A DNA stretch of 64,000 nt from Bacillota bacterium (GTDB lineage: Bacteria; Bacillota; Dethiobacteria; DTU022; PWGO01). The translations under genes and the position numbers were made by a program. Below, piece by piece: positions 4,444 through 50,715 of this stretch. The stretch covers positions 1-64,000 of the forward strand of contig JAAYSV010000008.1 of assembly GCA_012518215.1 (NCBI GenBank), written 5' to 3'. How positions within the stretch are numbered: the first letter of the stretch is position 1; each line of letters begins with the position of its first letter. Below the pieces are notes generated by a model. It was not told the DNA's origin. It saw only the letters and a program-made list of their open reading frames with translations, and made no database searches.

Positions 4444-4458
4444 CAACTCGCATCTTTA

Positions 4459-11288: not shown

Positions 11289-11322
11289 TTCAACTGCATT
11301 GTTATTTCAAGAATTGCCGAAC

Positions 11323-13168: not shown

Positions 13169-13915
13169 ATGAAGATGAAAAACTCGGAGCGTTTTCTCAT
13201 TGCCTACACGAAGATTGAAAACGAAATAAAAAAGATGCTCGATCTGAAAGAACACCGACGTTTTTATGATCTGGTTCATATGGCAAGCAAGATTGACCCG
13301 GTCATCAGACGCTACAAATTCGATCTGAGGGAATACAGCGATCTGCGCAACGTTCTTGTACATGATCGCGCCGATGGGCGGGTTCTGGCCGAGCCCACAG
13401 ATGAGGTCGTGGCTGCCCTGGAGGAAATCGCTTCCATGTTGCTGGATCCACCGCGAGTTATGCCCCTTTTCAAAAGAAAGGTGCTGGCCCTCGATATATT
13501 TCATTCCGCCTCACGTACCATCAGGGAAATGAGCAGGACCACTTATTCCCAGGTAGCCGTAATCGAAAACCATGTTGTGGTTACGATGCTTACTTCCCAT
13601 ATGATCATCAGCTGGTTGGGAAAAAATTTGGCGGACAGAACGCTCGACCTGGACAATGCCTCCATCCATGATATTCTTGCTTTCACCGGGATGGAGGATA
13701 ACTTCGTCGTCATCCCGGAAAATGCATCTCTTTTTGAAGCGCTTGATCATTTCTACCACTATCAGGTGGAGAAAAAAAAGCTTGAGGCCGCCTTGATAAC
13801 CAAAAACGGCCTGGCCGGTGAAACGCTTCTGGGCATCATCACCAACCGCAATCTTCCCCTGCTGCAAAGGAAACTGGAGCAGGCCCGCCGGGGAACCGTT
13901 GACAACGGGAAATGA
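13169..13915 (+). CDS. HEPN-like domain protein with CBS pair
   Basis: A 248-residue soluble protein. Residues 1-95 are helical and contain RNVLVHDR near 62, an Rx4H pattern typical of HEPN domains, followed by LAEPTDEVVAALEEIASMLLDPP. Residues about 100-240 look like two CBS motifs: YSQVAVIENHVVVTMLTSHMIISWL and, at the end, AALITKNGLAGETLLGIITNRNLPLL, the usual adenosyl-ligand-sensing pair. HEPN domains often act as ribonucleases and CBS pairs as energy or adenylate sensors, so a nucleotide-gated RNase is conceivable but not shown. It stands alone; GGAGG lies 12 bases before the ATG, and an ATG two codons later is an alternative. Confidence 0.7.
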   Translation: MKMKNSERFLIAYTKIENEIKKMLDLKEHRRFYDLVHMASKIDPVIRRYKFDLREYSDLRNVLVHDRADGRVLAEPTDEVVAALEEIASMLLDPPRVMPLFKRKVLALDIFHSASRTIREMSRTTYSQVAVIENHVVVTMLTSHMIISWLGKNLADRTLDLDNASIHDILAFTGMEDNFVVIPENASLFEALDHFYHYQVEKKKLEAALITKNGLAGETLLGIITNRNLPLLQRKLEQARRGTVDNGK

Positions 13916-14003
13916 CCCCGCACCCGGGAATTCCGGTGTAATCAAGAAAAACGGTAATTGTACATGTTCTTCTGATTGCATGACTGCAAAACAAGTTCAA
14001 AAT

Positions 14004-14037
14004 AAAAAATGGGAAGGACCGCTATCAGCCCTTCCCA
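14004..14037 (-). terminator. Intrinsic terminator after ABC binding-protein gene
   Basis: On the minus strand GGGAAGG and CCTTCCC form the stem (14011-14017 with 14030-14036), followed by ATTTTTTATTTT. It ends the permease-ATPase-binding protein unit. Confidence 0.85.
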
Positions 14038-14056
14038 TCACAACAAACAGGCAGCA

Positions 14057-35577: not shown

Positions 35578-35629
35578 AAGTGGGCACGGATTCCCGGTGT
35601 TTTATCGGGGCAGAACTCTGCGCCCACTT
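35578..35629. terminator. Bidirectional terminator overlapping the nitrilase stop
   Basis: AAGTGGGC (35578-35585) pairs with GCCCACTT (35622-35629), followed by TTCATTCTTTTT on the plus side. The nitrilase stop codon at 35602-35604 lies inside the loop. It serves the plus-strand hydrolase; on the minus strand the structure overlaps coding sequence. Confidence 0.6.
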
Positions 35630-36567
35630 TTCATTCTTTTTGCTTTTTCAACATTTCTTCCATACCATACTTTTCCGTGCCACCTCTGGTAATTCCAGGC
35701 GACGGCAGGAATCGGGCCACGGGCATGAAGCCAATATTTTCGAGGAATATCCCTCAACGGTTTCGTTCGCCCAATTCCAATATCTCCGACAAGGATGCCT
35801 TGCCCCGCATGGCGGCTGCACACAGCAACCGTACCTCCCTGACTATCCACGATCATGGAACCGCCTTCGTAATGCCCTCTGTATCTCATCGGCAACCATG
35901 GAAGCGAGCATTCAACCTGGCCCACGTGAGCAGCATGAATGATAGGGGCACCTACATAAGTGGCAAATGAGCGTACAGATTCAAGCGCAGTTTCCTCATT
36001 TTTTTCTTCCCAGCGGCCTGTCACCAGTCCTGGTGCCCATGACGGAACGCTCCACCAGCAACTGCCACCGACAACGGCATCAACTTTTCCACGCAGTCTT
36101 CTTGCCGTTCGTGAACGCATGAATTCCCAGCAAAGCGCTACCCCGATATATTTTTCTTCCACCTTCATGATGCCATCATCTGTTCCACCCACGTAAAAGC
36201 AATTCTCCCACATCGTGGGGATGTCTTTGTTGTGCCTGCCGACAATCCCTTCCGGTGAAACAAGAAAGAAAGCATTGCGTACAATGCTGTCTTCATCACG
36301 CATGATGAATGATCCCCCGACGTACGCCCGATGCCGCCTGGCCACGTTGAGCAACATTTTCAGCGCCGGACTGTCCGGCCCCTGGATCGCATCAGCAATG
36401 CTTGGATTGAAGGCCATACCCGTGGTGAAAAATTCCGGAAGGAGTATCCACTTTGCACCTTTTTCACCGGCTTCATTGGCCATATTTTCGCATGCAGTCA
36501 GATTTGCCTGAAGGTCACCGATTTCGGCTTCCAATTGAATCGCGGCAACCCTTGTTTTGCCAGTCAT
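35602..36567 (-). CDS. Nitrilase-superfamily carbon-nitrogen hydrolase
   Basis: A 321-residue CN-hydrolase. The Glu-Lys-Cys triad is visible: Glu in WILLPEFF, Lys in GRHNKDIPTMWE, Cys in GVALCWEFMRS. RVAAIQLEAEIGDLQANL is the typical family opening. ATG at 36567 is chosen for AGGGTGG eight bases upstream; the frame extends 29 codons further without a site. The C-terminal region is longer and Trp-rich relative to common omega-amidases, so the substrate (aliphatic amide, nitrile or carbamoyl compound) cannot be named. It follows the C45 acyltransferase gene on the same strand, separated by about 200 bp that contain a GC-rich palindrome. Confidence 0.82.
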   Translation of the reverse strand: MTGKTRVAAIQLEAEIGDLQANLTACENMANEAGEKGAKWILLPEFFTTGMAFNPSIADAIQGPDSPALKMLLNVARRHRAYVGGSFIMRDEDSIVRNAFFLVSPEGIVGRHNKDIPTMWENCFYVGGTDDGIMKVEEKYIGVALCWEFMRSRTARRLRGKVDAVVGGSCWWSVPSWAPGLVTGRWEEKNEETALESVRSFATYVGAPIIHAAHVGQVECSLPWLPMRYRGHYEGGSMIVDSQGGTVAVCSRHAGQGILVGDIGIGRTKPLRDIPRKYWLHARGPIPAVAWNYQRWHGKVWYGRNVEKAKRMKSGRRVLPR

Positions 36568-36665
36568 GATCGTTGCCACCCTGATTTTATGAGTTCTCAT
36601 ACCCCTGCAGCATGGCAGATAAAACCGGTATGCCAGTACATCTTTCAATCTCATGCAGGTTGAAA

Positions 36666-36775: not shown

Positions 36776-38479
36776 TTATATTTCCTGGGCATCGCCCATG
36801 AGAAATTCGGCAACTACATGCTTGACTGCACCGGATTTGTACGGCTTTTTGAGCCCTTTTCCGGCAGCCGCAAACGGACTGCTGTCCTGCGGGGCGGAAT
36901 CCAGGACCCGGCGGTAGATTTCCATGGCCTGGCTTCTCTGCCCAAGAATATCATGGCAACGTCCTTGCCAGAGCCAGACAAGGGCGCGGCGATAACTGCT
37001 GTTGAACGGTTTGTCAGCTTTGTAAAATAATTCCAAAGCAGCCTCGGTTCTGCCTCTTTTGAGATAAAACAGGCCCAGCATGAAAGCATATATGGGTTCC
37101 TCCGGGTGAAGCTGACAGGCCTTCTCGAGGTGATCCACAACTTTATCTTCATTCAGATCATCAAAGGCCTGGTAAGCAAGTGTATACTGGCGCAGAGCCG
37201 GGTATTCGGAACTATGGAAAAAAGCATTTCCGGGAATGGTTCCCAGATCTCCATCCTCGCCCCTCCGCAGGGCATCGATGTCAAAGCCGACGTAGGCAGA
37301 AGTGGTGTTGGCCGGGGCCGGGCCCTCGGCCACCCAGACCCTCTGTTTGTCAGGCTCTATCACGGCACTCGTGACATTGTGAACTGCCGAAACGATATTT
37401 CCCATCGGGCGTTCCATCCGGGAGATAGGATCGTAGTGGTCTCCCAACATGGCTGCCATGGTTTCAGGTGTAATTTCGCCGGCGCTGTCCTCCAACAGGT
37501 GGTTCATCCTGTGCAAGCGGGCATGGTTGTGTTCCAGCAGGCCATGCCCCGGAATATATTCCTTCTCTATCATCCGGGGATGAAGATAATTGTTGGCATA
37601 GCAGAGCCAGGGCTTGTCGGGTTCGGAGGAAATAACCTCGTAACCTTCGGCATTGGTTTCGATTATTACAGCATTGCCTTCGGCGGCACTTCCAATCACG
37701 ATGGTCCAGCCAGACGTTGCCTGGCTACTGCTTATTATCTTGATGGCATCGGAAATACTTCGTGCGCAGACGGCGATCTCGTTGGTAAGAGAAATGATAC
37801 TGCGTCCCCTGGTGTTGATGGATTTGCTGAAATTCTGATGGGTGGATACGGTCAGCCCCTCGGCATTGAAAGCCGTAATACCTTCAATGGGGATGCCGGC
37901 ACTGGTGATCGAGGTAAAGGGTATCTCCCCCGGCCCGGGTTCGGCAACAAGGACAACGGCCTGATCTATCCATTTGTCGCCTGTAAAAAAGTCCAGATTG
38001 CGACCAAAGATCATACCCCCATCTGCCGTGGCTTTCCCCCAGGCGACAAGGCTTGAACAACCGAGCCCGTTCCCCGGTATGGGCGGCGGTGCCGGTAATC
38101 TGGCACCGAGGGTTCTGAAAAGCCAGCCCAGGCAGTAGTTGTAGGCATCGGGAGCCGCAGCGGCGCGTTTCAAATCCTCGTAGCTTACGGCGTGATCGAT
38201 GCCTTCGGAATAACCTTTGAGCAACTCCCGATCACGTAGCGGAAGCCGCCGATCAATAGTACCGGGCCTTACAACCAGTTTATTGATCAAGGAAACCAGG
38301 GTGCGCTGTATTATTTTGGGCATTCCGGGAACCATGTGTGCAATCTGGATATCCCAGAAATTACGGTAGAAGTCCATGCTTCCCGCAAGAGCCTCGCGCC
38401 CCAGTTCCTGAGCATGCTGGAAAGAACGTTGATAGGGGGTACCGGACACCTTGACTACTCGAATTTTCCGCGGATTTGA
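36776..38479 (-). CDS. C45-type acyltransferase/peptidase with C-terminal TPR-like repeats
   Basis: 567 residues. The first 430 resemble the acyl-CoA:6-aminopenicillanate acyltransferase (peptidase C45)/choloylglycine-hydrolase-like Ntn fold: GLGCSSLVAWGKATADGGMIFGRNLDFF, with the Cys as presumed nucleophile after self-cleavage, then GLTVSTHQNF and a late MERPMGNIVSAVHN. Residues about 430-540 have alternating helices (AFDDLNEDKVVDHLEKACQ, YLKRGRTEAALELFYKA, ILGQRSQAMEIYRRVL) like TPR repeats. ATG at 38479 has GGGAGG about 12 bases upstream. There is no signal peptide, so it is cytoplasmic. It follows the CooC gene after 115 bp and could extend that operon. The natural substrate is unknown. 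Confidence 0.75.
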   Translation of the reverse strand, partial: SNPRKIRVVKVSGTPYQRSFQHAQELGREALAGSMDFYRNFWDIQIAHMVPGMPKIIQRTLVSLINKLVVRPGTIDRRLPLRDRELLKGYSEGIDHAVSYEDLKRAAAAPDAYNYCLGWLFRTLGARLPAPPPIPGNGLGCSSLVAWGKATADGGMIFGRNLDFFTGDKWIDQAVVLVAEPGPGEIPFTSITSAGIPIEGITAFNAEGLTVSTHQNFSKSINTRGRSIISLTNEIAVCARSISDAIKIISSSQATSGWTIVIGSAAEGNAVIIETNAEGYEVISSEPDKPWLCYANNYLHPRMIEKEYIPGHGLLEHNHARLHRMNHLLEDSAGEITPETMAAMLGDHYDPISRMERPMGNIVSAVHNVTSAVIEPDKQRVWVAEGPAPANTTSAYVGFDIDALRRGEDGDLGTIPGNAFFHSSEYPALRQYTLAYQAFDDLNEDKVVDHLEKACQLHPEEPIYAFMLGLFYLKRGRTEAALELFYKADKPFNSSYRRALVWLWQGRCHDILGQRSQAMEIYRRVLDSAPQDSSPFAAAGKGLKKPYKSGAVKHVVAEFLMGDAQEI

Positions 38480-38594
38480 CATTGTCTTCAACAACCTCCC
38501 TTGCAGAATGTACAGGTAGATACTTTATCCTATATTTATATTCTGAATCACGGAAGGAATACCTTTTATTGTTGACAGATTTTTGTTACGCGCC

Positions 38595-39335
38595 TCACAG
38601 TTTTTGCATCAAGGTCTCGACAGCCTGCAAAGCGGGTGTGGTCGGCAGATCCAGAAAGGATTTTCCGTTGATATCGTAGTCCCTGACCATGCCATCTTCA
38701 GGAAGCCAGCCGATGACGGGAAGACTGGTGGATCTTTGAGCATTCATGACTTCTTCCTCGTTTTTGGCCCGGTTGATCAGCAGCCCTGCCTTGTGCTCAC
38801 CGATAGCCCGTGCCGCAACTTTTTCAATAGTTTCGGCCACGTTCAATCCCTTGGCAGACAGGTCGGAAACCAGAAGTAAAAAATTCACATCTTCCATCAC
38901 ACGGCGATTTACCTGTTCAACACCGGCCTCCGCATCAATGATGGTGAAATCAAATTGTGAGGCCAGCATCTGAATGGATTCGCGCAGGAATGAATTGATC
39001 TGGCAGTAGCACCCCTCTTCCTCGGGCCTTCCTACTGCCAGGAAGGCAAGGTTTTTGTATTCCGAAAGGGACTCCAGAAGTTGAAAGTCGATGGAAGCGG
39101 CCAGATTCAATTTGTCGGCACTGTGTTCCCGGGCAGCGGCAATTATGGATTCACGCAAATCGTTTACCGTTTTCTTGACAGGCAGGGAGAGAGCCATTGA
39201 TAACCCTGCACTGGGATCGGCATCGATCACCAACCCGCGTTGCTTTTCCTGCTCCACGATCAACCTGGATAGAAGTGCAGCGACGGTTGTCTTTCCCACG
39301 CCACCTTTTCCACAGATAGAAATAACCTTTTTCAA
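38595..39335 (-). CDS. CooC-type ATP-dependent metal-insertion protein
   Basis: A 246-residue MinD/ParA-like ATPase. The deviant Walker A is ICGKGGVGKTT (residues 7-17), IDADPSAGLSMA follows, and IIDAEAGVEQVNRR holds the switch region. GCYCQIN (Cys109, Cys111) reproduces the CxC motif at the CooC dimer interface that binds nickel or zinc in carbon monoxide dehydrogenase maturation. TTG at 39335 is chosen because it overlaps the preceding stop (TTGA) and has GAGGGG six bases upstream. It is directly coupled to the ACS-like domain gene, suggesting that it loads metal into that protein or activates the neighbouring reductase. No CODH is in the window. Confidence 0.85.
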   Translation of the reverse strand: MKKVISICGKGGVGKTTVAALLSRLIVEQEKQRGLVIDADPSAGLSMALSLPVKKTVNDLRESIIAAAREHSADKLNLAASIDFQLLESLSEYKNLAFLAVGRPEEEGCYCQINSFLRESIQMLASQFDFTIIDAEAGVEQVNRRVMEDVNFLLLVSDLSAKGLNVAETIEKVAARAIGEHKAGLLINRAKNEEEVMNAQRSTSLPVIGWLPEDGMVRDYDINGKSFLDLPTTPALQAVETLMQKL

Positions 39336-40051
39336 CTCAGTCCCCTCTCTTTCCGCAGGCGGTCCCGTATCTCTCTCAAACCTGCCACTTCGCTGCAAAC
39401 ATCAATGTATTCGCAGCTATCGCAATCAAAATTCATTTCTTCGTACATCCTGATAAGCGCCTCCAGGGTATCCCGAACACGCTCGGAAGTGGATGAAAGT
39501 CCCTTGAGAGCCCCGGTCGATTCCGTTATAAAGATGACCTCGCAACCCTTGATGTTTTTGTTGCGAACTATTTTTTTTATAAGGGTGGAACCGTAGCGGA
39601 CCAGGCTGAAACCTTTTTTCAAGGCATCACTGCTGACCCGGCACCAGATTTTCTGCCTGTCGGGCCTGATCCTGATCGAAATCCCTTCCGGTTTAACATC
39701 GAACACTACATCCCTGATATCCTTGTAGGTGTCGTAGTCATCTGAAAAATGTCCGTGAACCAGAACGATCTGGGCAAAAGGAAGTCTATCTGGCGCCTCC
39801 GTTTCCGTCAGATCTTGACCGACGAGAGATATCCGATTGGGCTTGACCATTTCGGCACGGGTGGTCCACATGATCAGAAATAGCGAATGATTTGCACTGC
39901 CAAGTTCCACGGCCATGTCTTCTTGCAGAACGAGAGACCTTTTCTCGGGCCAGGCCGAAAAAATGTTAAACTCATTTTCAGTGAGGACACCCCGCAAACG
40001 GGCATCGGCGAGGTAATCGGTCAGATTTTTGAACGGCTCGTCAAACAGCAT
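39332..40051 (-). CDS. Stand-alone acetyl-CoA synthase (CdhC/AcsB) middle-domain-like protein
   Basis: A 239-residue protein. Its central part (about 70-200) follows the CdhC/AcsB pattern: PNRISLVGQDLTE, FAQIVLVHGHFSDD, ISIRIRPDRQKIWCRVSSDALKKGF, RYGSTLIKKI, then IFIT. The C-terminus has DCDSCEYIDVCSE (Cys 210, 213, 219 from this start), reminiscent of the first two A-cluster cysteines (GCTLCQ) of acetyl-CoA synthase, but the rest of the A-cluster domain is missing. ATG at 40051 has GAGGG five bases upstream; GTG four codons earlier is an alternative. It overlaps both neighbours, an HgdC-type ATPase and CooC. The homology is by recalled pattern, so moderate; a metal-binding electron-transfer or scaffold role is inference. 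Confidence 0.6.
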   Translation of the reverse strand: MLFDEPFKNLTDYLADARLRGVLTENEFNIFSAWPEKRSLVLQEDMAVELGSANHSLFLIMWTTRAEMVKPNRISLVGQDLTETEAPDRLPFAQIVLVHGHFSDDYDTYKDIRDVVFDVKPEGISIRIRPDRQKIWCRVSSDALKKGFSLVRYGSTLIKKIVRNKNIKGCEVIFITESTGALKGLSSTSERVRDTLEALIRMYEEMNFDCDSCEYIDVCSEVAGLREIRDRLRKERGLS

Positions 40052-40826
40052 CTTCTCCCTCACTCTGCCCTATAAGCGCAGCTCCATAAGCAACGGCCAG
40101 TTGTGGATCGATCGGAAAGGATTGATATTTCCCTTTGAGGCGTTCCTCCAGAACACGGATTATACTGTTTACCCGGGCCACCCCCCCCGTGACGGTAAAA
40201 CTATCTACAGGGCCGACACGCATTGCCTGGGAAACTATTATTCTGGCCATGGCATCGCATACGCCAGCCAGTATGTTGGGTACGGCCTCTCCCTGGTTAA
40301 CATAAGAGATGATTTCGCTTTCGGCAAAAACTGCACACTGTGTACTGACCGATATCCTCTTCGTTGCCTCGCCGATGGTGCTGTCAAGGTCATCCATATT
40401 TACCCTCAACGCAGAGCTTATCACCTCTACAAAACGCCCCGATCCCGAAGCACATTTGTCGTTGCGCATGAAGTTCAAGATATCACCATCGGGATCGGTA
40501 AGAATGGTGCTTATGTTCTGCCCCCCGATATCTATGGTCAGTTCCGTTTCGGGAAGCAGGTGCCTGCTTGCCACGGCAATACAGGCCACATCGTCTTCCA
40601 TAAAATCCGCATCTTTTACCAGATCTTCCCCTTGCCCGGAACTGACGCATATATTTATATCCTTACGTGTTATATTTGCTTTCCCGGCCACCTCATCAAT
40701 AATTGAATCAATTTCTCCGGCGATGTTGCCGGTCGTCTCCCTGATTGTGCTGGCGATTATTTCGCCATCTTTCATCAGAACTGCCTTGGTAAAAAGACTG
40801 CCGACGTCCATACCCAGTGTAATCAT
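40041..40826 (-). CDS. BadF/HgdC-type activator ATPase, second copy
   Basis: A 261-residue ASKHA-fold ATPase that in the family hydrolyses ATP to drive electrons onto a dehydratase or reductase. GMDVGSLFTKAVL is the phosphate-1 motif, TIDIGGQNIS phosphate-2, and GGVARVNSIIRVLEE the adenosine motif. Cys125 (NDKCASGSGRF) and Cys164 (TQCAVFAESE) are the positions that bridge a [4Fe-4S] cluster between two subunits. The family GGQD is GGQN here. Start ATG overlaps the stop of the first ATPase (ATGA) with GGAGGAG upstream. Two non-identical ATPases are typical of class I benzoyl-CoA reductases rather than of the homodimeric dehydratase activators. Confidence 0.88.
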   Translation of the reverse strand: MITLGMDVGSLFTKAVLMKDGEIIASTIRETTGNIAGEIDSIIDEVAGKANITRKDINICVSSGQGEDLVKDADFMEDDVACIAVASRHLLPETELTIDIGGQNISTILTDPDGDILNFMRNDKCASGSGRFVEVISSALRVNMDDLDSTIGEATKRISVSTQCAVFAESEIISYVNQGEAVPNILAGVCDAMARIIVSQAMRVGPVDSFTVTGGVARVNSIIRVLEERLKGKYQSFPIDPQLAVAYGAALIGQSEGEDAV

Positions 40827-41620
40827 CCGGCTTTCTCCTCCCTGATTTTCCTTGCATGCAAAGCGGCCCCCAGAGCTCCCACAATTTGTGAGTCAATATT
40901 GTACGGTAACAATCGCACATTCATCATTTTTTCCAATTCCTTGCAGACAGCCGGGTTTTTGGCTACCCCGCCGGTTATGGTAATGTCCTTTTCCACTCCC
41001 ACTCTGCGTACCAGGGCCATCACCCTTCCGGCCATGGTCTTGTTGATACCGGCAGCAACATCTGCCATGTCAGCCCCCCGCTGCAGATAATGATGAACTT
41101 CGGTTTCACAAAAAATACTGCACCTGTTGCTCATCTCTATGACCTCTTTTGCCTTGAATGACAATGGCCCGAGTTCCTCGATGCCGATACCCAGGGTTTT
41201 GCTCATGACTTCGAGAAAGCGTCCCGTTCCGGCGGCACACTTGTCGTTCATGACAAAATTGACCAGCTCACCTTTATCGTCCACCTTGATCACCTTGGCA
41301 TCCTGGCCCCCTATATCAATGATTGTCCTCACTGAAGGCAGAATCCACTGGGCTCCTTTCCCATGGCAAGATATTTCACTGATGTTATCCCCGGCAAGGC
41401 CCTCCTTCTGGATCTGTTCCCGTCCGTACCCGGTACTCACGCACATGGCCAGGTCCTTGTAGGTCAACCCTTTTTTCTTGAGAGCTTCTTCCATTGCCGA
41501 GGAAGCGGAATCTACCGGGTTCGGTTTTACCTTTATACTATGGTAACTGTAGATAGAATTGTTGGTGATAACAACGGCCTGTGCCGTCAATGAACCGACA
41601 TCTATTCCTCCAAACAACAT
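40823..41620 (-). CDS. BadF/HgdC-type activator ATPase, first copy
   Basis: A 265-residue ASKHA ATPase. GGIDVGSLTAQAVV, STGYGREQI, IIDIGGQDAKVI, NDKCAAGTGRFLEVM (Cys128), NRCSIFCETEV (Cys167) and ITGGVAKNPAVCKELE follow the 2-hydroxyglutaryl-CoA dehydratase activator almost exactly. ATG at 41620 is used because GGAGGG lies seven bases upstream; a frame start 14 codons earlier has no site. It lies 67 bp after the HgdA-like gene and is coupled to the second ATPase. It probably forms an iron-sulfur-bridged dimer, with itself or with the second copy, and feeds electrons to the two dehydratase-like subunits. Confidence 0.9.
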   Translation of the reverse strand: MLFGGIDVGSLTAQAVVITNNSIYSYHSIKVKPNPVDSASSAMEEALKKKGLTYKDLAMCVSTGYGREQIQKEGLAGDNISEISCHGKGAQWILPSVRTIIDIGGQDAKVIKVDDKGELVNFVMNDKCAAGTGRFLEVMSKTLGIGIEELGPLSFKAKEVIEMSNRCSIFCETEVHHYLQRGADMADVAAGINKTMAGRVMALVRRVGVEKDITITGGVAKNPAVCKELEKMMNVRLLPYNIDSQIVGALGAALHARKIREEKAG

Positions 41621-41687
41621 TTTCTCACCCTCCGTATCTTTTTCGATGCTTTGATTTACCACCCCTCCACCCTACCCTCTCATCCAA

Positions 41688-43088
41688 TCAACGTGCGACC
41701 CTCCGGCGACGGCGCTTGGACAGAACCACGTTGTTGATGAACTGCTCGATTTCCTCCTGGATGGCACCGATAGGAGTCATCGTCCTGATCCATGAGTCAC
41801 CATGCAATCCGAGGGTGGGAACACCCGTTCTCTTGAGCACCTCGTTACGGGTCAAGGAAAAAACACTCCAGGTCTGCTTGCAGGAATGATGCCCGCAGTA
41901 GATACATCCATCCAATCCCCATTCGTTGACCACGTACACGATATCATCGGCCCATTTTGCGGACATGGATACTCCACCCATCTGCCTGGTCATGACATTG
42001 TTCCAGGCACTTTCTATCATACCCTCCAACATGGTTTCCTTTGATGTAAGGTCAAGCGTTTCCGGGAAAGCTAACTGAAGGGCGTCCCCCATGTTGCTTA
42101 TCCTCATCTCTTCCATCCAGTCATAAAAGTTCAGAAAATCATAGTAATAGCTCAGATAGACCCACACCACCCGCGCTATTTCACCACGGGCCCTGTACTC
42201 TTCGTCAGCCAGGTTGCGCCGTGCCACCTCCACACATTTTTCGAGCACCCGGATTCCTTCGTCACGCCCCCACATGGCAAACCTTGTGGCACAAACAAAC
42301 AATGAAAAAACACCCGGAACAGGGCAAGGGACCTCTTTTTTCAGTTCCCAGATGTCATCATAGAGTTCCGTGCAGCGGTTAACCTTTTCCGCCACCCGAC
42401 GCACTTTTTCTTCCGTCAGTTCCTCCCCCGCCAGTTCTTCCAGATGTCTGATCATCTTGTAATAATTGTTCTTGAAAAACTCGAAACCCCTCTTGGTGTT
42501 GTCCGGTGCCTTTTCCAGCGGGATCTGGGGCAATCCCACCAGCAAGGAAACAAACTCATGCGTCTTGGCGTTAACATCACAAGTTCCCACACAGCCGGAA
42601 ATAATGGCATCGGGTTTAAAATCCAAGCCGGTAAGCGTTGATCCCAGGTCGATGGTGTTGGCTGAACAGAGATGGTCGGGAAGCCCCAGCCCCATGGCAT
42701 AATCCCAGTACCTTTCTCCCTGGCCTTCCAGAGTAACCACCCCCATGGTGGTCAGAACTTCCGTAGTAATGGGAACCAGGTTATCAAATGCATGGATGAT
42801 CTCCGGAGGGAAATTGAAAGGGGCCAGAACAACTTTTTTCCCCTCCTCTCTGGCCCTTTTTGTTTCTTCAAGGGCCGTTCCCAGCATGCGTACGAATTCG
42901 TATGTTGCATCCTGGATGGATGGTTTGAAAAGACTTTTCAACGAATTGGCGCTATCATCCGGAATAACCCCGGCCAGCCCTTCGAGTTCCTCGGCACTTA
43001 TTTTCGGTGGCAGTCTCTGCAACAGACTGAACAGAGAATAGACCCGATCATACAATCCCTTCTTTACCGCGCCCGTTTTGTTTTCCAT
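41688..43088 (-). CDS. 2-hydroxyacyl-CoA dehydratase/benzoyl-CoA reductase-like subunit (large)
   Basis: A 466-residue member of the HgdA/BcrB (HGD-D) family, the iron-sulfur component that receives ATP-energised electrons. VVLAPFNFPPEIIHAFDNLVPI is the family opening. Cysteines cluster as DHLCSAN (141), SGCVGTCDV (166, 170) and DGCIYCGHHSCK (395, 398, 403). The C-terminus is a basic KRRRRRVAR tail. The start has GAGAGGTG upstream. It follows its partner at 43093 by only four bases. With two ATPases downstream it forms a four-subunit set like BcrCBAD, but nothing nearby proves an aromatic substrate; a dehydratase of an amino-acid fermentation pathway is an alternative. Confidence 0.85.
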   Translation of the reverse strand: MENKTGAVKKGLYDRVYSLFSLLQRLPPKISAEELEGLAGVIPDDSANSLKSLFKPSIQDATYEFVRMLGTALEETKRAREEGKKVVLAPFNFPPEIIHAFDNLVPITTEVLTTMGVVTLEGQGERYWDYAMGLGLPDHLCSANTIDLGSTLTGLDFKPDAIISGCVGTCDVNAKTHEFVSLLVGLPQIPLEKAPDNTKRGFEFFKNNYYKMIRHLEELAGEELTEEKVRRVAEKVNRCTELYDDIWELKKEVPCPVPGVFSLFVCATRFAMWGRDEGIRVLEKCVEVARRNLADEEYRARGEIARVVWVYLSYYYDFLNFYDWMEEMRISNMGDALQLAFPETLDLTSKETMLEGMIESAWNNVMTRQMGGVSMSAKWADDIVYVVNEWGLDGCIYCGHHSCKQTWSVFSLTRNEVLKRTGVPTLGLHGDSWIRTMTPIGAIQEEIEQFINNVVLSKRRRRRVAR

Positions 43089-43092
43089 GAAA

Positions 43093-44202
43093 TCACCTCT
43101 CTATCCTTTCCAGGAAAGCCTGGACCCTGGTTTTTAGCCGCCCGATATCGGCGGTGGCACCATATTCCTTCTCCAGAATCAACACCGGAATGCCCTTTTT
43201 TTCCAGATCAAGGCGCAGCTTGACATTTTCTATACCGTGCAGATCACAGAATTTATTGTGAAACAGGATAGCCCCCTCGGATCGAGATTTTTCGATCATC
43301 TCCATGATGTAATTCTCACGTGCATAAAAATCGAGAAACATGCGGGGACAGAGCAGATTCAGAAGATATGTTTCAGCCAACCTTCTCAGGGGAACATCGG
43401 AAACAGCCTCCCGGCGAAAGAGACGGGTCCCGAAACAGAACGAATCGGCAACCATGATCCCCCCCAGATCCTCAAGTTCAGAAATAAGACCAATTTCATC
43501 GGTAGCAGCACCCCCCATAAAAAGGCGGGCACGGCATTCAAGCGGTTTGCGATGAGGTAGTTTTTCCATGAAATCATCGATCAACTGTTCAAATTCATCT
43601 GCCGGCAGTGATCCTTCCGCCACCGACAAAGACATCACCTCACTGCCCGGAATCTTCACCTCGCTGTTCCAGCGGCTCATGTAGATTTTGCGCATTTTGT
43701 CCGCGATTCTGTCTTGCTGTTCGATGGCTGACATGATCTCTTGCTCACCGATGGCAACGTTGAAATGATCTTGCAGCGCAACAACAAGAAGTTCCAACTC
43801 GCCGGTAAGCCACTCCAGCGAATCTTCATCTTTCTGATGCGGGACGCGCAAGTAATAAAAAAATTCCCGTGGCGATACATGCTGCCAGTTTTCGAACATG
43901 CCACGCAAATGATCGCAACCGTTGGTTTCGATGATTCCATCCAGGAATTCGTATGTGCCATCCATTCCAAGCTGCAGGCAAGCACGGCAGAAGCCACAGT
44001 TGAACCGTGAAAGATATGCATCGGCCATATCCGTCTCGCCACTTGCCAGGGCCTTGATGCGATAGGGGATGATTCCGGCTGCATCCAGAATTTCACGGGG
44101 GGTGGCCAGGCAGGTATAACCGACAATTTTCCGGCCTTCTTCCCGCGCTTTTTTTATCCGGCTATTCTCGATTACCGTTACCAACTCATGTAGAATGTCC
44201 AC
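43093..44202 (-). CDS. 2-hydroxyacyl-CoA dehydratase/benzoyl-CoA reductase-like subunit (small)
   Basis: A 369-residue HgdB/BcrC-type protein. IVGYTCLATPREILDAAGIIPYRI (Cys31) and RFNCGFCRACLQLGMDGTYEFLDGII (Cys 69, 72, 75) followed by TNGCDHLRG (Cys96) match the family core. SFCFGTRL and HNKFCDLHG (near 320) give the later cysteines. CFGTRL and KFCD are the usual positions for substrate and cluster contacts. GTG at 44202 has AAAGGAGG 11 bases upstream and overlaps the end of the helical-protein gene by 17 bases. It is the likely heterodimer partner of the 41688-43088 product. Confidence 0.87.
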   Translation of the reverse strand: MDILHELVTVIENSRIKKAREEGRKIVGYTCLATPREILDAAGIIPYRIKALASGETDMADAYLSRFNCGFCRACLQLGMDGTYEFLDGIIETNGCDHLRGMFENWQHVSPREFFYYLRVPHQKDEDSLEWLTGELELLVVALQDHFNVAIGEQEIMSAIEQQDRIADKMRKIYMSRWNSEVKIPGSEVMSLSVAEGSLPADEFEQLIDDFMEKLPHRKPLECRARLFMGGAATDEIGLISELEDLGGIMVADSFCFGTRLFRREAVSDVPLRRLAETYLLNLLCPRMFLDFYARENYIMEMIEKSRSEGAILFHNKFCDLHGIENVKLRLDLEKKGIPVLILEKEYGATADIGRLKTRVQAFLERIER

Positions 44203-45964
44203 CAGACACTGTACCTCCTTTCACTTTTTTGCCGCTGTTTTTGCGCAACGTTCCTTTGATCAACCCGCGTACCAGTGCATACAGGGATTTCATGATTGAT
44301 TTGGACAACGGCGGGTTTGCAGAAAGAGCAACGGATATCTGGTTGGAGGTGTTCAATATGGCATCCGATACCTCTTGCTGGTCGATCTGTGCCGCGAATA
44401 TCGCCAGCGCTTCTTGTGAATTTTCCGTGTACATTCTGGGATTTCGGTTGTAAGCCCTCAGTATAGAATTGACCATCTTGCCCGCTTCTTCGGGCGACAA
44501 TAGATCCCAGATGCTTTCTTTCTCCAGAAAGGCAACAGATTGGGCTACCATTGTCTGGGCAAGGGTTCCAAGTTCCTTCTTGTCCACCGTCCGGTAAACA
44601 GATGATAAAGTTTTTTCGATAATGTCAGGATGTGGTACAAGCACCTGATTTACAAGGCGTATAACAGCGGTAACCAGCAGTCCCGTTTCCTTGAAATCCA
44701 GGTTTTTCGTCCATTCCAGATAGATCTGTTGGTAAAAATCTTCGGGTAATTGCCCCAGCTTGGCGACCAGATAACCGGATCCCTGCATCAGCGCATTGAA
44801 AGCGGAAATCAGAACCGGAGCACCTTTCTGCAGCAGTTCCGGCCTTTCCAGTATTGCATCGGTAATAACCGGGATCATGATTTCCAGATCCTCGGACAGG
44901 GCTGTAAATGCATCCATGATCTGCGTCTCATCAATTTCTCTGACAATTTCCTGTACAAGGTTTTGAAAGACTGCCCGGAAACGTGGTTCATCCCCGCCCA
45001 GTACCGAGCTACCTTCATGCAAGCCGTTGATAAAACGTGAAAGACCATTCACCAGTTTCCCGATTTCCTTGACCTCAAGATTGTCGATCAAATTGAAAAT
45101 GGCACTGGCGAGGATCTCCGGGGGGAAATCGATCTCCGCAATACCGTGAGCGATCCCTTTCAGGAGGTTATTGATGACGGGTGGCAAGGCGGTTAAAACA
45201 TTGGCAAAGATGACAGGATCGGTAACGATGGTTCCTATGGCGCTTTCAATAACCGGATAATTTGTCTTTGCCCGCCGGGTCAAGGTGTCACGGATGACCC
45301 CGAAATCCATCGTCTGCATGGTTTCCTGCAATACATCGGTCGTTTTTTCCTGCCAGGCGGAGATACTTGCCTCATCCTTGCCCGCCGCCGCCCCCATCCA
45401 TCTGAACAGAGACGTGATACCCGCAGCAAGGGCCTGCGGGTCTGGATGAAAACCTTCCGGAGACAATTCTTGCATTTCTTCCCGTCTCATGGAGGCAGCG
45501 TTCAAAAAATCGGCCAGCATGTACATCAAGGCATTCAGTGCCTCGAAACCACCCGTTTTTATATTTTGCCTTCTTTCCGCATCCTCCCAGATCAAAGTTT
45601 TCAACAGCGGCGCATAGGTCTCGGGAAGGGCCTTCAGCGCCTCCCTGTCAATTTTCGCCGCCATCTCGGTAACAAATTGTTGCAGCAACTCGGGCGGAAC
45701 ATGGTGCAATTGAATCCCTATTTCATCCAGAAAAGCAAGTAAAATATTTATGTCCTGGGGCAGTCCTCCCAGCATGCCGAATGAAAAGGCAGCGTCTTCC
45801 CAGAGAAGGGTTCTGGCCAATTCCCGTGCCGATTCCGGATCCTTTGCATCAACAGACAATGCAGCCAGATCCTTGAACATGGGCGTCCGGAGCAATTGTC
45901 TCATTATCCGGGGGCCAGCACTTATTTCACCGGTTTTTCCCGGTTTGAACCTTTTTTCTTCCAT
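44186..45964 (-). CDS. Large all-helical protein of unknown family
   Basis: 592 residues, almost wholly amphipathic helices with HEAT-like spacing. It has no cysteine cluster, signal peptide or clear membrane segment. I do not recognise a family. The N-terminal part shares a pattern with the next upstream gene: LL-TP-FK, then ARTLLWEDAAFSFGMLGGLPQDINI and PPELLQQFVTEMAAKID. Further internal blocks such as FPPEILASAIFNLIDNL and the repeated INGL/IVREID units suggest repeats. ATG at 45964 is preceded by GGAGGAG eight bases upstream. It overlaps the HgdB-like gene by 17 bases, so it is made with the reductase subunits. A scaffold or chaperone for the complex is a guess. Confidence 0.7.
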   Translation of the reverse strand: MEEKRFKPGKTGEISAGPRIMRQLLRTPMFKDLAALSVDAKDPESARELARTLLWEDAAFSFGMLGGLPQDINILLAFLDEIGIQLHHVPPELLQQFVTEMAAKIDREALKALPETYAPLLKTLIWEDAERRQNIKTGGFEALNALMYMLADFLNAASMRREEMQELSPEGFHPDPQALAAGITSLFRWMGAAAGKDEASISAWQEKTTDVLQETMQTMDFGVIRDTLTRRAKTNYPVIESAIGTIVTDPVIFANVLTALPPVINNLLKGIAHGIAEIDFPPEILASAIFNLIDNLEVKEIGKLVNGLSRFINGLHEGSSVLGGDEPRFRAVFQNLVQEIVREIDETQIMDAFTALSEDLEIMIPVITDAILERPELLQKGAPVLISAFNALMQGSGYLVAKLGQLPEDFYQQIYLEWTKNLDFKETGLLVTAVIRLVNQVLVPHPDIIEKTLSSVYRTVDKKELGTLAQTMVAQSVAFLEKESIWDLLSPEEAGKMVNSILRAYNRNPRMYTENSQEALAIFAAQIDQQEVSDAILNTSNQISVALSANPPLSKSIMKSLYALVRGLIKGTLRKNSGKKVKGGTVSGGHST

Positions 45965-46001
45965 AAACATGTCTCCTCCTTTCCCTTACATCAATTTATT
46001 G

Positions 46002-46673
46002 TCAATTGTCCACCGCATGGCGGAAAGCTTCTACCAATGGCTTGCATACATGTTCCACAAAATCCGGGTTTTTCTTCAAGGATGCTTCGATCATCGACGA
46101 GAGCCCATCCACAAGTTTGCGAGTTTCGGAATCCTTTTTTTTGGCTTCTTTGCCCAGAAAATGTATCTGCTCGTATAGAAAAGGTTCGACCAGGTTGAAT
46201 AAAAAAAATATGGCACTTTCGCCTTTTCGCCCCATCTCTCCACCTACCCGGGAAAAAAGAGCCGAAACTGATCTTTTCAGCAACCCATCAGGAAGGCTGC
46301 AAACATTGCGTACCAACTCGAAAGTTGAATCCATGGCCAGACCCAAAGTCTGGCCATCAATACGTTCCAGCAGCCCGGACAAAAACCTGTCCAGCAGCAA
46401 TGGCGGATATTTCCCCAGCTGCTCCATTATCTCCTTGCTGCCCAGAATGGCGATGTTGACCAGATCCGGAACTGTCCCCAGAACTGACATGGATAACTCC
46501 GTATCTTCCCACATCAAGGTTCGCACCAGCCGGGGGACTGAACCCGTGTCGATGGAATTGATGATGATTTTCAACGCCGCCTTGAAGCGCGGTGTTTTTA
46601 ACAACTCCTCCAATACCCTGTTCAAAGCTTCGATCAAGCCTGATTGTAATTTTTTTTCATCAGCATCTTTCAT
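46002..46673 (-). CDS. Small helical paralogue of the 44186-45964 protein
   Basis: A 223-residue all-helical, basic-acidic protein. It shares with its larger neighbour the order ELLKTPRFKAAL, LVRTLMWEDTELSMSVLGTVPDLVNIAI, EIMEQLGKYPPLLLDRFLSGLLERID, so the two come from one family or an old duplication. No domain name is recognised. ATG at 46673 is used; TTG four codons earlier at 46685 is an alternative, with AAAGG close by. It lies between the acyl-CoA dehydrogenase gene (22 bp upstream) and the larger helical gene, inside the same apparent operon. Confidence 0.68.
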   Translation of the reverse strand: MKDADEKKLQSGLIEALNRVLEELLKTPRFKAALKIIINSIDTGSVPRLVRTLMWEDTELSMSVLGTVPDLVNIAILGSKEIMEQLGKYPPLLLDRFLSGLLERIDGQTLGLAMDSTFELVRNVCSLPDGLLKRSVSALFSRVGGEMGRKGESAIFFLFNLVEPFLYEQIHFLGKEAKKKDSETRKLVDGLSSMIEASLKKNPDFVEHVCKPLVEAFRHAVDN

Positions 46674-46694
46674 CCAGATTACCAACCTTTGTCT

Positions 46695-47963
46695 TCAAAG
46701 TGTTTTACTGTTGAAAAACAGCCGCGCCGTTTCCATCTGGCAGAGCTGTTTCCCCCCCATCCATAGCTGGACAATCTTCAGGTCCCTCCAGTGCTTTTCG
46801 ATATCCCAGTTACGATCACTTCCATACGATTCCATCAGATTCATGGCCTTGCCTACACTCTCCATGGCACGATCACAGGCAAAATATTTGTAGGCACGCC
46901 CCTTGGCTACTACTTCATCATCCCAGCGTGCCCCGTACAGATCGGGACGATCAAGCATGCGGGCATATTGATATCCAATGATCCTGATAATTTCTATATC
47001 CCTGGCTATGTCCGCCAGAACACCGGCGATAGCATCATGCTCTTTCAGGGGCAGCCCTTTGAAATAATGCGAATTGGAGAATTCATACAGTCTTTCGTAA
47101 ACATTCATCATGGCACCACTGACAAATGAAATGCTGCCCATGTTTCCGAAAGAGATAACTTCTTTAAAATAAAGGTAATCATCTCCCGGCCCACAAGCCC
47201 GGTAATAAGCCGGAACACGGACATCCTCGAACCAGATGTCCCCGTTCATATCGGCGGCCATACCTGCCTTCTGGTAAGGCCCCCCCTGGGTAACCCCCGG
47301 GGTGTCAGCCGGCACGAAGATAAAAGCAAAATCCTTCAGGTCGGTTGATCCGGTATTGGTACTGCAGACCACCCCGAACAGATTTGCTATACCCCCGCTG
47401 TTGGTTGGCCATAACTTGTGCCCGTTGATAACCCATTCATCACCTTCCAGCACGGCTGAAGTCTCGATGGTGCTGCCCTTGATTATGTCCATGTTTTCTA
47501 TATCAGCGCCCCCTTGCGGTTCAGTCATGGCATTGGCAGCAAAAACAGCTTTGTCGGTTTCACAGAACAGAGGTGCAAATTCCTCGCAAAGCCGACGGTT
47601 TACATGGGGTTCATTGCAGATCATGGTCAACGGCCAGTACACTACACCAAGGGCCACCGCCATGGCAGAATCTGCACGGGCCACCTCTTCAAACAAGCGG
47701 TAAGAGGCAGTTGCAGTATACTGGGAATGTCCCAAACCCCATCCCCCCAGATCTTCCGGGAACAATACCCGTTGTACACCCAGCACACCCATCAGCCGAT
47801 CAAATGCGGGTCCTATTATTTTATGCTCCTCCCAATCCTCATCGAATTTACGCCGATAGGGGATCACTTCATTTTCCGCCCAATCCCTGACAACCTTCCC
47901 CAGCAGCTCATCAAGGGGGGAAAGGTACTCGAGCGGCCTGGTAAAAATGTCAGTGAGATTCAT
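46695..47963 (-). CDS. Acyl-CoA dehydrogenase-like flavoprotein, subunit 2
   Basis: 422 residues with the three-part acyl-CoA dehydrogenase fold. LFPEDLGGWGLGHSQYT is in the N-terminal helices. The FAD-side motif AANAMTEPQGGADIENM is near 140-155, WVINGHKLWPTNSG follows, and DIEKHWRDLKIVQLWMGGKQL closes the C-terminal domain. The usual late catalytic EGT glutamate is not at its position (LWMGGK instead), so another base or subunit must act. GGGAGAG lies upstream of the ATG. It has the same C-terminal ending (SKTL) as its upstream partner, NCKTL. The two probably form a heteromer that oxidises or reduces a CoA ester related to the dehydratase-like enzyme. Confidence 0.83.
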   Translation of the reverse strand: MNLTDIFTRPLEYLSPLDELLGKVVRDWAENEVIPYRRKFDEDWEEHKIIGPAFDRLMGVLGVQRVLFPEDLGGWGLGHSQYTATASYRLFEEVARADSAMAVALGVVYWPLTMICNEPHVNRRLCEEFAPLFCETDKAVFAANAMTEPQGGADIENMDIIKGSTIETSAVLEGDEWVINGHKLWPTNSGGIANLFGVVCSTNTGSTDLKDFAFIFVPADTPGVTQGGPYQKAGMAADMNGDIWFEDVRVPAYYRACGPGDDYLYFKEVISFGNMGSISFVSGAMMNVYERLYEFSNSHYFKGLPLKEHDAIAGVLADIARDIEIIRIIGYQYARMLDRPDLYGARWDDEVVAKGRAYKYFACDRAMESVGKAMNLMESYGSDRNWDIEKHWRDLKIVQLWMGGKQLCQMETARLFFNSKTL

Positions 47964-47979
47964 CTTTGATCTCTCCCTC

Positions 47980-49230
47980 TTATAAAGTTTTGCAGTTGTA
48001 AAAGTAGCGGGCCAGATCCATCTTCAGTAATTCCCAGTTGCCAAGATACACCTGCATGGTCTTTACATCCCGCCAGTAACGTTCAAGGTTCCACTCGGTA
48101 GCATATCCTGCAGAGCCCATCAATTCCATGATGTTGTTGATGGATTTCTCTGCAGAGCTGCTGACATGGGCAAAAATACCAAGCGCGGTTGCAAACAAGC
48201 TTTCGTCCGTGGTGTAACGAGTATCATCCGGTTGGGCAAGCAAATTTGCCAGTTGATGAACCAGGAGGCGGCTTAACAATATCTGGTGACCTATTTCAGC
48301 CATGAGGGAAGCTGTCAAGGGGTTTTCCTTGAATATGCAGCCCCGCCCTTTGATCACCCGTGTGTCCCCCCATTCTCTTATAATCTCGAAAGCAGACAGT
48401 AGAGATCCCACCGTAACCGCCCCCGCCCCCATATAAAGCCAGGAAAGCATCTTTAAATAGGGGGCTTCACCACGAAAAACGAGGTTATCCGTTTCCACCT
48501 CAACATCTTCAAAATCTATATCAGCATTCACGCTTGCCGCCAGGCCAGTCTTCAAAAATGGTTGGCCCCTTTTGATCCCCTTGCAATCAGCCGGGACAAT
48601 AAAAAATGCCGGTTTCTCCCCTCCCTCTCCCTCCACCGCACACAGTATTCCAAAAATATGGGCATCCGCTCCCGAGTTGAGAGGCCTCATTCCATTGCCA
48701 GAAATTATCCATCGGTCCCCCTCCTTTCGGGCGGAAGCCTGCAAGCACCTGCCCCGGAAATTGAAAGGTGTTTGCTCTTTTTCTTCCCTCCCGTAAGCCG
48801 GAAGTATCAGGGATCCCAAAACTACCCGATCGCCCTGACAACATGAAGACGCAAGTTTCTTGCAGAGTGGATCATTCAATGTTGATTGAAAAGCAAAAGT
48901 ACTGTAAATGGCAAAAGTAGAAGCGGTAACGAACCCTATACCGGTGTCCGCACTGCCTATTTTTTCCAACGACAGGGCAAGCGTAGGGGCGATTTGCGAA
49001 CTGTTATGTCCAGCGCCACCGTATTTTTCTTCCCATACCATTTTCTGCATTTCTATATCCAGATACAGTTTTTTCATCGCCGGCCTCAACAGCTTTTCTA
49101 CGTTTTCTTTCAGTTCCAACCTCTTGCCCATAACCTCCGCATTTGCCCACTTCTCAAGGCTTCTGGCCAGAGAAAGGTCAGCGTCTTCGGCCTTTTCTAT
49201 TGGAAACAACATCGTTTCTTGGGCACTCAT
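47980..49230 (-). CDS. Acyl-CoA dehydrogenase-like protein, subunit 1 (degenerate FAD motif)
   Basis: 416 residues, first gene of the long minus-strand unit. The fold is recognisable: EEKYGGAGHNSSQIAPTLALSLEKIG, DRWIISGNGMRPLNSGADAHIF, PFLKTGLAASVNADIDFEDVEV and WNLERYWRDVKTMQVYLGNWELLKMDLARYF. However the FAD-phosphate loop normally written as TEPxAGSD is replaced by LPAYGREEKEQTPF, and the C-terminal EGT is absent (YLGNWE). It may be a structural subunit of an alpha/beta pair with the 46695-47963 protein, as seen in other heteromeric dehydrogenases. GGGAGGG lies just before the ATG. The 49231-49549 gap upstream carries a palindrome and AT-rich promoter-like DNA. Confidence 0.78.
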   Translation of the reverse strand: MSAQETMLFPIEKAEDADLSLARSLEKWANAEVMGKRLELKENVEKLLRPAMKKLYLDIEMQKMVWEEKYGGAGHNSSQIAPTLALSLEKIGSADTGIGFVTASTFAIYSTFAFQSTLNDPLCKKLASSCCQGDRVVLGSLILPAYGREEKEQTPFNFRGRCLQASARKEGDRWIISGNGMRPLNSGADAHIFGILCAVEGEGGEKPAFFIVPADCKGIKRGQPFLKTGLAASVNADIDFEDVEVETDNLVFRGEAPYLKMLSWLYMGAGAVTVGSLLSAFEIIREWGDTRVIKGRGCIFKENPLTASLMAEIGHQILLSRLLVHQLANLLAQPDDTRYTTDESLFATALGIFAHVSSSAEKSINNIMELMGSAGYATEWNLERYWRDVKTMQVYLGNWELLKMDLARYFYNCKTL

Positions 49231-49549: not shown

Positions 49550-50515
49550 TTACTTGCAGAGGTCCGAAACAGATTTTATGTTGCAAAGGGATGTTGCAGA
49601 ACGTACCGCTCGTAAAATTGATATTTCCACGGCACGAACCGCCAGCAAGCCCACGGTATCGGGATTCGCATCGATCTTACAGGTAGACAGGGCAAAGATG
49701 GTATCGCCATCGTACAGTGTATGCGCCGGGCGGACCACGCGCCCAATACCATTTTGCGCCACCATCGCCAACCTGTTGGCCCCCGATTTGGAAAGGTTGG
49801 CATTGGTGATTACCGCACCGATAATGGTGTTTCCATTCGCCATTCGAGGTCCACGATCACACAATTCAACAAACATCCGCTCGGTGTCAGCAAAAGTTAA
49901 CCCGTCATCATCAAGGGCACCGGCTACAATCTTGCCCGTGGCAGGATCAACAACATCCCCCAGGCAATTGACAGCCATGATCGCTCCCACATCGAGTTCA
50001 CCCGCCCTGAAACAACAGGTTCCGATCCCACCCTTCATGGCCTGTTTCATTCCCAAAAATTTGCCGACCGTGGCACCTGTCCCCGCCCCAACATTGCCTT
50101 CCCGGCATTCATTGTCCGATGCATTCTTGCATGCCTGGTACCCCATTTCTTTCCCCGGCCTGATACGGAAGTCGCCGATATGCAGATCAAAAAGCACGGC
50201 ACCAACCACGATGGGAACCGTGGTCACACCCACATTATATCCACAATTTCGTTCCTCAAGATAGCTCATCACCCCCGCGGAAGCATCAAGGCCAAAGGCA
50301 CTGCCGCCAGCAAGCAGAATGCCATGTGTCTCGCCAACCAGATTCATGGGATTCAGAAGATCGGTCTCCCTCGTACCCGGGGATCCCCCCCGGACATCGA
50401 CCCCACCACACCCACCCTTTTCGCAGAGAATAACAGTGCAACCTGTAGCTGCTTCCACATCCTGGGCATGTCCAATTTTTATACCCTCTATATCCACCAG
50501 TTTTATTATTTCCAT
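49550..50515 (-). CDS. P1/S58-family aminopeptidase (DmpA-like)
   Basis: A 321-residue N-terminal-nucleophile hydrolase of the DmpA/S58 family. ATG at 50515 has GGGAG eight bases upstream; 27 further upstream codons lack a site. Motifs are GIKIGHAQDVEAATGCTVILCEKGG, VDVRGGSPGTRETDLL, LAGGSAFGLDASAGVM, GNVGAGTGATVGKF, and near the end GAVITNANLSKS, which contains the expected self-cleavage and nucleophile region (Asn-x-Leu-Ser/Thr), then YDGDTIFALST. Members cleave N-terminal residues from peptides or beta-amino substrates. It is monocistronic on the minus strand, downstream of an unrelated gap. Confidence 0.87.
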   Translation of the reverse strand: MEIIKLVDIEGIKIGHAQDVEAATGCTVILCEKGGCGGVDVRGGSPGTRETDLLNPMNLVGETHGILLAGGSAFGLDASAGVMSYLEERNCGYNVGVTTVPIVVGAVLFDLHIGDFRIRPGKEMGYQACKNASDNECREGNVGAGTGATVGKFLGMKQAMKGGIGTCCFRAGELDVGAIMAVNCLGDVVDPATGKIVAGALDDDGLTFADTERMFVELCDRGPRMANGNTIIGAVITNANLSKSGANRLAMVAQNGIGRVVRPAHTLYDGDTIFALSTCKIDANPDTVGLLAVRAVEISILRAVRSATSLCNIKSVSDLCK

Positions 50516-50715
50516 CACATATCTCCCGAAACCTTGTTTGTTTTTTACGAAACAGCTGCTTTTTTTATAATAATGTACCATGCAGCTGCATCGCAAGCCC
50601 GAAATTGAATTTTAATTTTTGCTGTTTCAAAGCTTTACAAATTATGTTATTATATTATCAGCCAGTTTATCAGGCATAGTTGATCATGTACATAACTGTG
50701 GTGAGGTGAAAGATA

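Follow-up and report, generated by a model that had tools for sequence, protein, structure and literature searches.

What kind of enzyme is encoded by a set of packed genes that places subunits resembling a benzoyl-CoA reductase (BCR) beside a CooC-type ATPase and a fragment of acetyl-CoA synthase (ACS)? Ten such genes lie on the minus strand at 38595-49230 of a 64,000-nucleotide stretch of DNA from an uncultured, anaerobic member of the Bacillota (the window; contig JAAYSV010000008.1 of assembly GCA_012518215.1), which is contig C8 of a 2.14-Mb metagenome-assembled genome (MAG) that is 97% complete. The operon is real, conserved and, as far as could be searched, undescribed; it is of the kind formed by the class I BCRs, the hydroxyacyl-CoA dehydratases (HADs) and DCCP, joined to a novel, presumed maturation module derived from CooC and ACS. 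Class I BCRs break benzene rings by an ATP-driven iron–sulfur "hard reduction", and the operon enzyme looks related to them. The explanation to which we incline, and which we rate as somewhat probable, is an ATP-dependent, extremely low-potential acyl-CoA reductase of class I BCR architecture with its own metal-cluster maturation pair.

Gene order and spread of the unit

In the direction of transcription the open reading frames (ORFs) are ACD1, ACD2, HEL2, HEL1, HGDA, HGDB, BADF1, BADF2, CDHC and COOC, with junctions of -17 to about +67 bp, the largest value hinging on the BADF1 start. The overlaps described in an earlier note on this DNA (44202/44186, 40826/40823, 40051/40041 and 39335/39332) and the near-contact at 43093/43088 were confirmed, and Pfam and NCBIfam upheld its family assignments: two proteins of the acyl-CoA dehydrogenase (ACAD) fold, two helical proteins, two HGD-D subunits, two BcrAD_BadFG proteins, CdhC and a CooC-like ATPase. 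The features are as follows.

ACD1, 47980..49230, minus strand: ACAD-fold flavoprotein (Pfam Acyl-CoA_dh, PDB alignment) with Leu396 in place of the usual catalytic Glu
ACD2, 46695..47963, minus strand: paired ACAD-fold flavoprotein with Met402 at the place of the catalytic Glu
HEL2, 46002..46685, minus strand: helical protein without a family match; the ATG start is probably at 46673
HEL1, 44186..45970, minus strand: all-helical protein (AlphaFold2) without a family match, present in Bacillota, Actinomycetota and Spirochaetota
HGDA, 43093..44202, minus strand: BzdN/DCCP-like subunit with C31, C69, C96, C256, C285 and C319 as predicted ligands of an [8Fe-9S] double-cubane site
HGDB, 41688..43088, minus strand: BzdO/HadB-like putative catalytic subunit with conserved C141, C170, C403 and Glu110, and with Asn173
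BADF1, 40823..41662, minus strand: ASKHA-type activator ATPase (PF01869, 195 bits), likely ATG start 41620
BADF2, 40041..40826, minus strand: second ASKHA-type activator ATPase (PF01869, 155 bits)
CDHC, 39332..40051, minus strand: stand-alone ACS domain 2 with a three-cysteine tail; the ORF reaches 40063 with a GTG start
CX2CX5C of CDHC (C214, C217, C223), 39395..39424, minus strand: kept in 33 of 33 sequences; its start falls on the A-cluster motif FYSCxLCQ of ACS in a hidden Markov model (HMM) alignment
COOC, 38595..39335, minus strand: CooC-type P-loop ATPase with the deviant Walker A GKGGVGKT and a TTG start
CXC (Cys-Tyr-Cys) of COOC, 39003..39011, minus strand: aligned with Cys112/Cys114 of CooC1

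The earlier note had proposed looking for the same gene order in other genomes. It was found in Bacillota, Actinomycetota and Spirochaetota, the three phyla that sampling covered, and the unit is beyond chance because the order recurs across them. Relatives were mostly MAGs, with genes called by a simple codon-usage caller that missed some low-GC genes. A scan of GTDB genomes with a CdhC-like alignment gave 15 loci whose neighbours were the same genes in the same order. The exact ten-gene order was also present in the actinomycetotal GMQP.bin.3 (L074), with near-identical orders in a distant Bacillota MAG (L075), in Geothermincola secundus (L066) and at L181, L184 and L186. In a sister genome (G451) the set was spread over two contigs, with its first eight genes at L118 and its last three at L065, and a relative at family level by GTDB-type classification had its CDHC locus at 414-1115 of contig G002:C27 (Syntrophomonadaceae record PUKQ01000089). 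Solincola-type loci (L068, L070, L076) ran HGDA-HGDB-BADF1-BADF2-CDHC-COOC, with ACD/HEL/HGD clusters elsewhere in the same genomes, and in Spirochaetota (L168-L174) most loci ran HEL1-HGDA-HGDB-BADF-BADF-CDHC-COOC, often followed by a second HGDA-HGDB-BADF. The core common to the three phyla consisted of a helical protein, HgdA-like and HgdB-like subunits, one or two BadF proteins, a CdhC-like and a CooC-like protein. Over 55 loci the commonest adjacencies were HGDA-HGDB (41), HGDB-BADF1 (34), HEL1-HGDA (31) and CDHC-COOC (29); CDHC and COOC overlapped by a median of 4 bp.

Co-occurrence was nearly perfect. CDHC was present in 21 and HGDB in 22 of 296 Actinomycetota genomes, all 21 CDHC genomes having HGDB, and the 12 of 149 Spirochaetota genomes with a short CDHC were the same 12 that had HGDB. 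Pooled, 33 genomes carried both, one carried HGDB alone and 411 neither (Fisher p about 3e-31 for Actinomycetota and 6e-18 for Spirochaetota, both values ignoring shared ancestry). The cassette is patchy in the host phylum, since the genome of the window was the only one of 398 sampled to have a short CDHC; Bacillota carriers came from the host's family and order. The L075 locus (1355-14951) was a mosaic, with an ACD2 76% identical to that of the window, HGDA and HGDB at 34% and 25%, and a COOC that groups with the spirochaete type, a pattern that suggests module exchange. No description of this gene combination was found in the open-licence literature. The "Magic" benzene cluster of Ca. Anaerobenzenivorax (PMC13101534) was considered and rejected, as it consists of different genes (GlcDEF-like, CoA-transferase).

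The reductase-like pair and its partners

HGDA aligned best to BzdN (8s02 chain B), in which Cys36, Cys73, Cys100, Cys263, Cys293 and Cys327 are the ligands of the [8Fe-9S] cluster (PMC11971306). All six positions are Cys in HGDA, as they are in DCCP, whereas HadC lacks two of them, the equivalents of C31 and C256. Every full-length cluster member has all six; conservation was complete at five positions (41 of 41 rows) and stood at 40 of 41 at the sixth, where one HadC-like outlier has a gap. With six Cys in HGDA, a reductase of BCR type becomes more likely than a dehydratase; the low-potential enzyme of BCR or HAD type suggested earlier is thus supported, with the choice sharpened towards reduction.

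In HGDB, C141, C170 and C403 align with Cys95, Cys128 and Cys380 of BzdO, and these three Cys were invariant in 60 of 60 sequences together with Glu110, the spacing of which corresponds to Glu65 of BzdO. The closest solved relatives included HadB (1e-16), BzdO (2e-12) and DCCP. Neither HGDA nor HGDB matched a curated NCBIfam family above its cut-off: all BCR subunit models fell well below (bzdN 138 of 453.8 bits, bzdQ 226 of 380.2), as did DCCP (156 bits against 350). DCCP resembles the present system in pairing a six-cysteine [8Fe-9S] subunit with an ASKHA reductase; it is, however, homodimeric with one [8Fe-9S] per monomer, whereas two distinct subunits are encoded here and HGDB has only three conserved Cys. 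Judged by alignment, HGDA and HGDB have the build of a class I BCR whose active site has changed. They share with the Bzd type (BzdNOPQ) two HGD-D subunits, one with the six [8Fe-9S] Cys and the other with three Cys and a Glu, usually two BadF-type ATPases and an expected CoA-ester substrate; the operon differs in adding CooC-like, CdhC-like, helical and ACAD-like genes. The earlier proposal of an undescribed reductase or dehydratase with an extra metal centre was supported in its first part, a conserved undescribed unit, and found no support in its second as far as HGDB is concerned: an extra cysteine site was rejected, since no Cys beyond the three was conserved in the 60 sequences, and there is therefore no evidence for a further metal site in that subunit. 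The host genome also encodes a second HGD-type pair (L189:7727-10273, contig C46), outside the cluster family, whose A subunit has the six double-cubane Cys.

Both activators carried two invariant Cys (C142 and C181 of BADF1 in 46 of 46 sequences, C125 and C164 of BADF2 in 25 of 25), as would be expected of ATPases whose two subunits hold a [4Fe-4S] cluster between them. In most loci two different BadF copies were present, as in class I BCRs, and some loci had one beside the module; BADF1 and BADF2 may form a heterodimer.

ACD2 showed the highest conservation of the ten proteins (72-83% identity between genomes of two phyla). The closest NCBIfam model for both ACDs was that of the cyclohex-1-ene-1-carboxyl-CoA (Ch1CoA) and cyclohexanecarboxyl-CoA dehydrogenases, with scores far below the cut-off (111 and 70 of 650 bits). 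Ch1CoA dehydrogenase likewise has no catalytic Glu. An equivalent of its Asp91 was not apparent in the ACDs and could not be aligned (7p98). Near HEL1 in most of the spirochaetal loci L168-L179, a GMC-type flavin adenine dinucleotide oxidoreductase replaces the ACD pair. HEL2 was conserved beside HEL1; neither matched a Pfam or NCBIfam family above cut-off, and HEL2 had no match in PHROGs either. AlphaFold2 predicted HEL1 to be all alpha, with a predicted local distance difference test (pLDDT) score of 72 from 29 sequences and mostly 80-93 over residues 200-580 (a first model was weaker, pLDDT 67), and the model had no PDB fold match with E below 0.4. Our guess for HEL1 and HEL2 is a role in handling hydrophobic substrates or as scaffolds. 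A small hydrophobic protein of about 140 residues without a Pfam match (L127:11722-12159 and five relatives) lies between or beside HEL1 genes in paralogous clusters.

Related loci offered hints to the substrate. One cluster (L128) encoded TetR, a PaaK-like CoA ligase, EtfA, EtfB, ACD1, ACD2, HEL1, HGDA and HGDB, and the usual neighbour in Actinomycetota was a long-chain acyl-CoA ligase. We favour CoA esters of bulky hydrophobic acids. At L125:3001-12625, ACD2-HGDB stood with an SCP-x-like thiolase, a ChsH2-like OB protein, an enoyl-CoA hydratase and a reductase resembling Old Yellow Enzyme, a neighbourhood that recalls steroid or aromatic side-chain oxidation; we assigned the thiolase and the hydratase from our own reading of the sequences.

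CDHC, COOC and the rival explanations

CDHC scored 53.9 bits against the CdhC family PF03598 (cut-off 24), and its ATG start at 40051 agrees more closely with the orthologues (MGLFDEPL..) than does the longer GTG ORF. It matches domain 2 of ACS only, including the Trp and Arg of the IWCRVS stretch (W140, R142). This Trp of ACS is implicated in CoA binding. In the HMM alignment the FDCxxC tail of CDHC lands on the ACS A-cluster motif FYSCxLCQ with its first two Cys aligned. The protein, of about 240 residues, ends about 20 residues past CX2CX5C; it thus has this motif instead of the ACS domain 3 with its complete A-cluster ligand set, and the nickel-site region with Cys-Gly-Cys is absent. The three-cysteine tail, a remnant of the A-cluster region, is a candidate site for an extra metal.

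The best PDB match of COOC was CooC1 (3kje), aligned over the full length with the CXC motif in register; the CXC cysteines of CooC1 bind Zn or Ni at the dimer interface (PMC6006190). CXC was kept in 36 of 36 sequences and GKGGVGKT(T/S) in most members, so that COOC has the deviant Walker A and metal motif of the CooC1/AcsF nickel ATPases. It differs from these in its company, being encoded with a BCR-like enzyme, and in small trees the cluster COOCs formed one clade across three phyla (support 0.90), apart from the sampled CooCs associated with carbon monoxide dehydrogenase (CODH), several of which came from the same genomes. Seven of 34 cassette genomes, all Spirochaetota and without a statement of assembly completeness, had no match to the Ni-CODH model (TIGR01702); in these genomes a role limited to CODH maturation is excluded for COOC. 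The earlier note was right to count the CooC-like and CdhC-like genes in the unit, because they co-occur with HGDB, also where no Ni-CODH was detected. Geothermincolia-type Actinomycetota (L122-L136) had 2-7 HGDB homologues per genome in separate ACD/HEL/HGDA/HGDB clusters and one CDHC-COOC; one of the genomes (G457) had seven HGDB homologues, one CDHC and several ACD-HEL-HGDA-HGDB clusters without CDHC-COOC (L125-L128). A maturation pair shared by several substrate-specific reductases would explain many HGDBs beside one CDHC, which a substrate-specific role of CDHC does not.

In the explanation that we prefer, the products would work as a complex. BADF1 and BADF2 would spend ATP to inject electrons one at a time into HGDA; its [8Fe-9S] double cubane would pass them to an aqua-[4Fe-4S] site in HGDB, where the CoA thioester of a bulky acid, probably aromatic, alicyclic or isoprenoid, would be reduced. 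ACD1 and ACD2 might act on the same family of CoA esters in a coupled flavin reaction, with HEL1 and HEL2 as hydrophobic-substrate or scaffold proteins. COOC, as an ATPase with CXC, may load a metal, possibly nickel, onto CDHC, a presumed CoA-binding ACS domain with its three-cysteine tail, and the pair would mature or tune the reductase. A bolder version, which we regard as possible but doubtful, is a hitherto unknown nickel- or hetero-metal-dependent branch of the BCR superfamily in which the CooC ATPase and the ACS-derived carrier install or present a metal that the ATP-driven reductase needs and are shared by several substrate-specific modules.

Several observations weigh against the preferred explanation. 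His131 and Glu65 of BzdO contact the cluster-bound water, and the His131 position is Asn173 in HGDB (Asn in 56 of 60 sequences, Gly in 3, Gln in 1), so the proton or hydrogen-atom chemistry of HGDB cannot equal that of BzdO. ACD1 and ACD2 carry the ACAD fold signature without a catalytic Glu at the MCAD-376 or IVD-254 position; of 16 family members, 14 have Leu and 2 have Val at ACD1 residue 396, and ACD2 has Met or Leu at its position, Glu being confined to five divergent paralogues. BamA/Oah scored above cut-off in none of the 34 genomes tested, which excludes benzoyl-CoA degradation by the known route, and the classical benzoyl-CoA pathway was rejected on this ground. In E. coli, finally, BzdNO is assembled with its clusters when the plasmid carries bzdNO and no CooC gene (PMC11971306), and CooC is therefore not required for the double cubane as such. 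Something in this system must differ from BzdNO, and CDHC is the best candidate recipient.

The missing His would also suit a radical HAD, in which HGDA and HGDB eliminate water from a hydroxyacyl-CoA with a recycled electron, the BADF proteins serve as activator and the enoyl-CoA formed is then reduced or oxidised by the ACDs. HADs belong to the same superfamily (HadBC/HadI, HgdABC), use an activator ATPase and share the three-cysteine cluster of HGDB, which scored better against HadB than against BzdO, and ACAD-fold partners would fit an enoyl-CoA product. We nevertheless consider a HAD unlikely: HGDA holds the two double-cubane Cys that HadC lacks, and this scheme gives no reason for a CooC or an ACS domain. 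We know of no CooC or CdhC partner in HAD systems. HADs moreover use a homodimeric activator and one [4Fe-4S] per subunit (PMC8473912), against two activator ATPases in most loci here. CDHC could instead be the catalyst in a DCCP- or ACS-like system, its ACS-derived CoA-binding domain, with a metal on the tail, handling an acyl or C1 group while HGDA and HGDB only supply low-potential electrons. The retained domain-2 core, the tail Cys on the A-cluster motif, the kinship of COOC with the Ni ATPases of CODH/ACS and the place of DCCP among the closest relatives of HGDB speak for this; the missing Cys-Gly-Cys region, the single CDHC in genomes with several HGDA/HGDB pairs and the seven genomes without a detectable Ni-CODH partner speak against it, and we give it little credence. 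Least credible of all, and already contradicted, is that COOC and CDHC are displaced Wood-Ljungdahl genes that serve the host CODH/ACS from beside a BCR-like operon. Both genes do derive from CODH/ACS families and the window genome has a CODH/ACS locus, on contig C20, but that locus has its own CooC and full ACS, and the single COOC clade, the genomes without detectable Ni-CODH and the co-occurrence with HGDB tell against displacement.

Boundaries and meaning of the unit

Upstream of ACD1, across an AT-rich gap of 319 bp that could hold a promoter, lies a peptidase family S58 (DmpA-like) gene (49550-50596). Downstream, 100 bp past COOC, a gene for a penicillin-acyltransferase-like protein with TPR repeats (36776-38494) is followed by one for a carbon-nitrogen hydrolase (35602-36654). 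The flanking S58 and penicillin-acyltransferase-like genes do not look part of the unit. A scan for consensus promoters and terminators was uninformative, with counts near those of shuffled sequence.

Class I BCRs, HADs and DCCPs are, to our knowledge, the only enzymes of this fold in which ASKHA ATPases drive reductions at potentials below the normal biological redox window. If the preferred explanation is true, the operon, by adding an ATPase of nickel-insertase type and an ACS fragment, would be the first link known to us between such ASKHA-driven chemistry and metal handling of the CODH/ACS type, and this in three phyla. The system supplies concrete genes for knock-out or expression, and it hints at what the Geothermincolia anaerobes of hot springs and the subsurface, with up to seven homologues, may live on.

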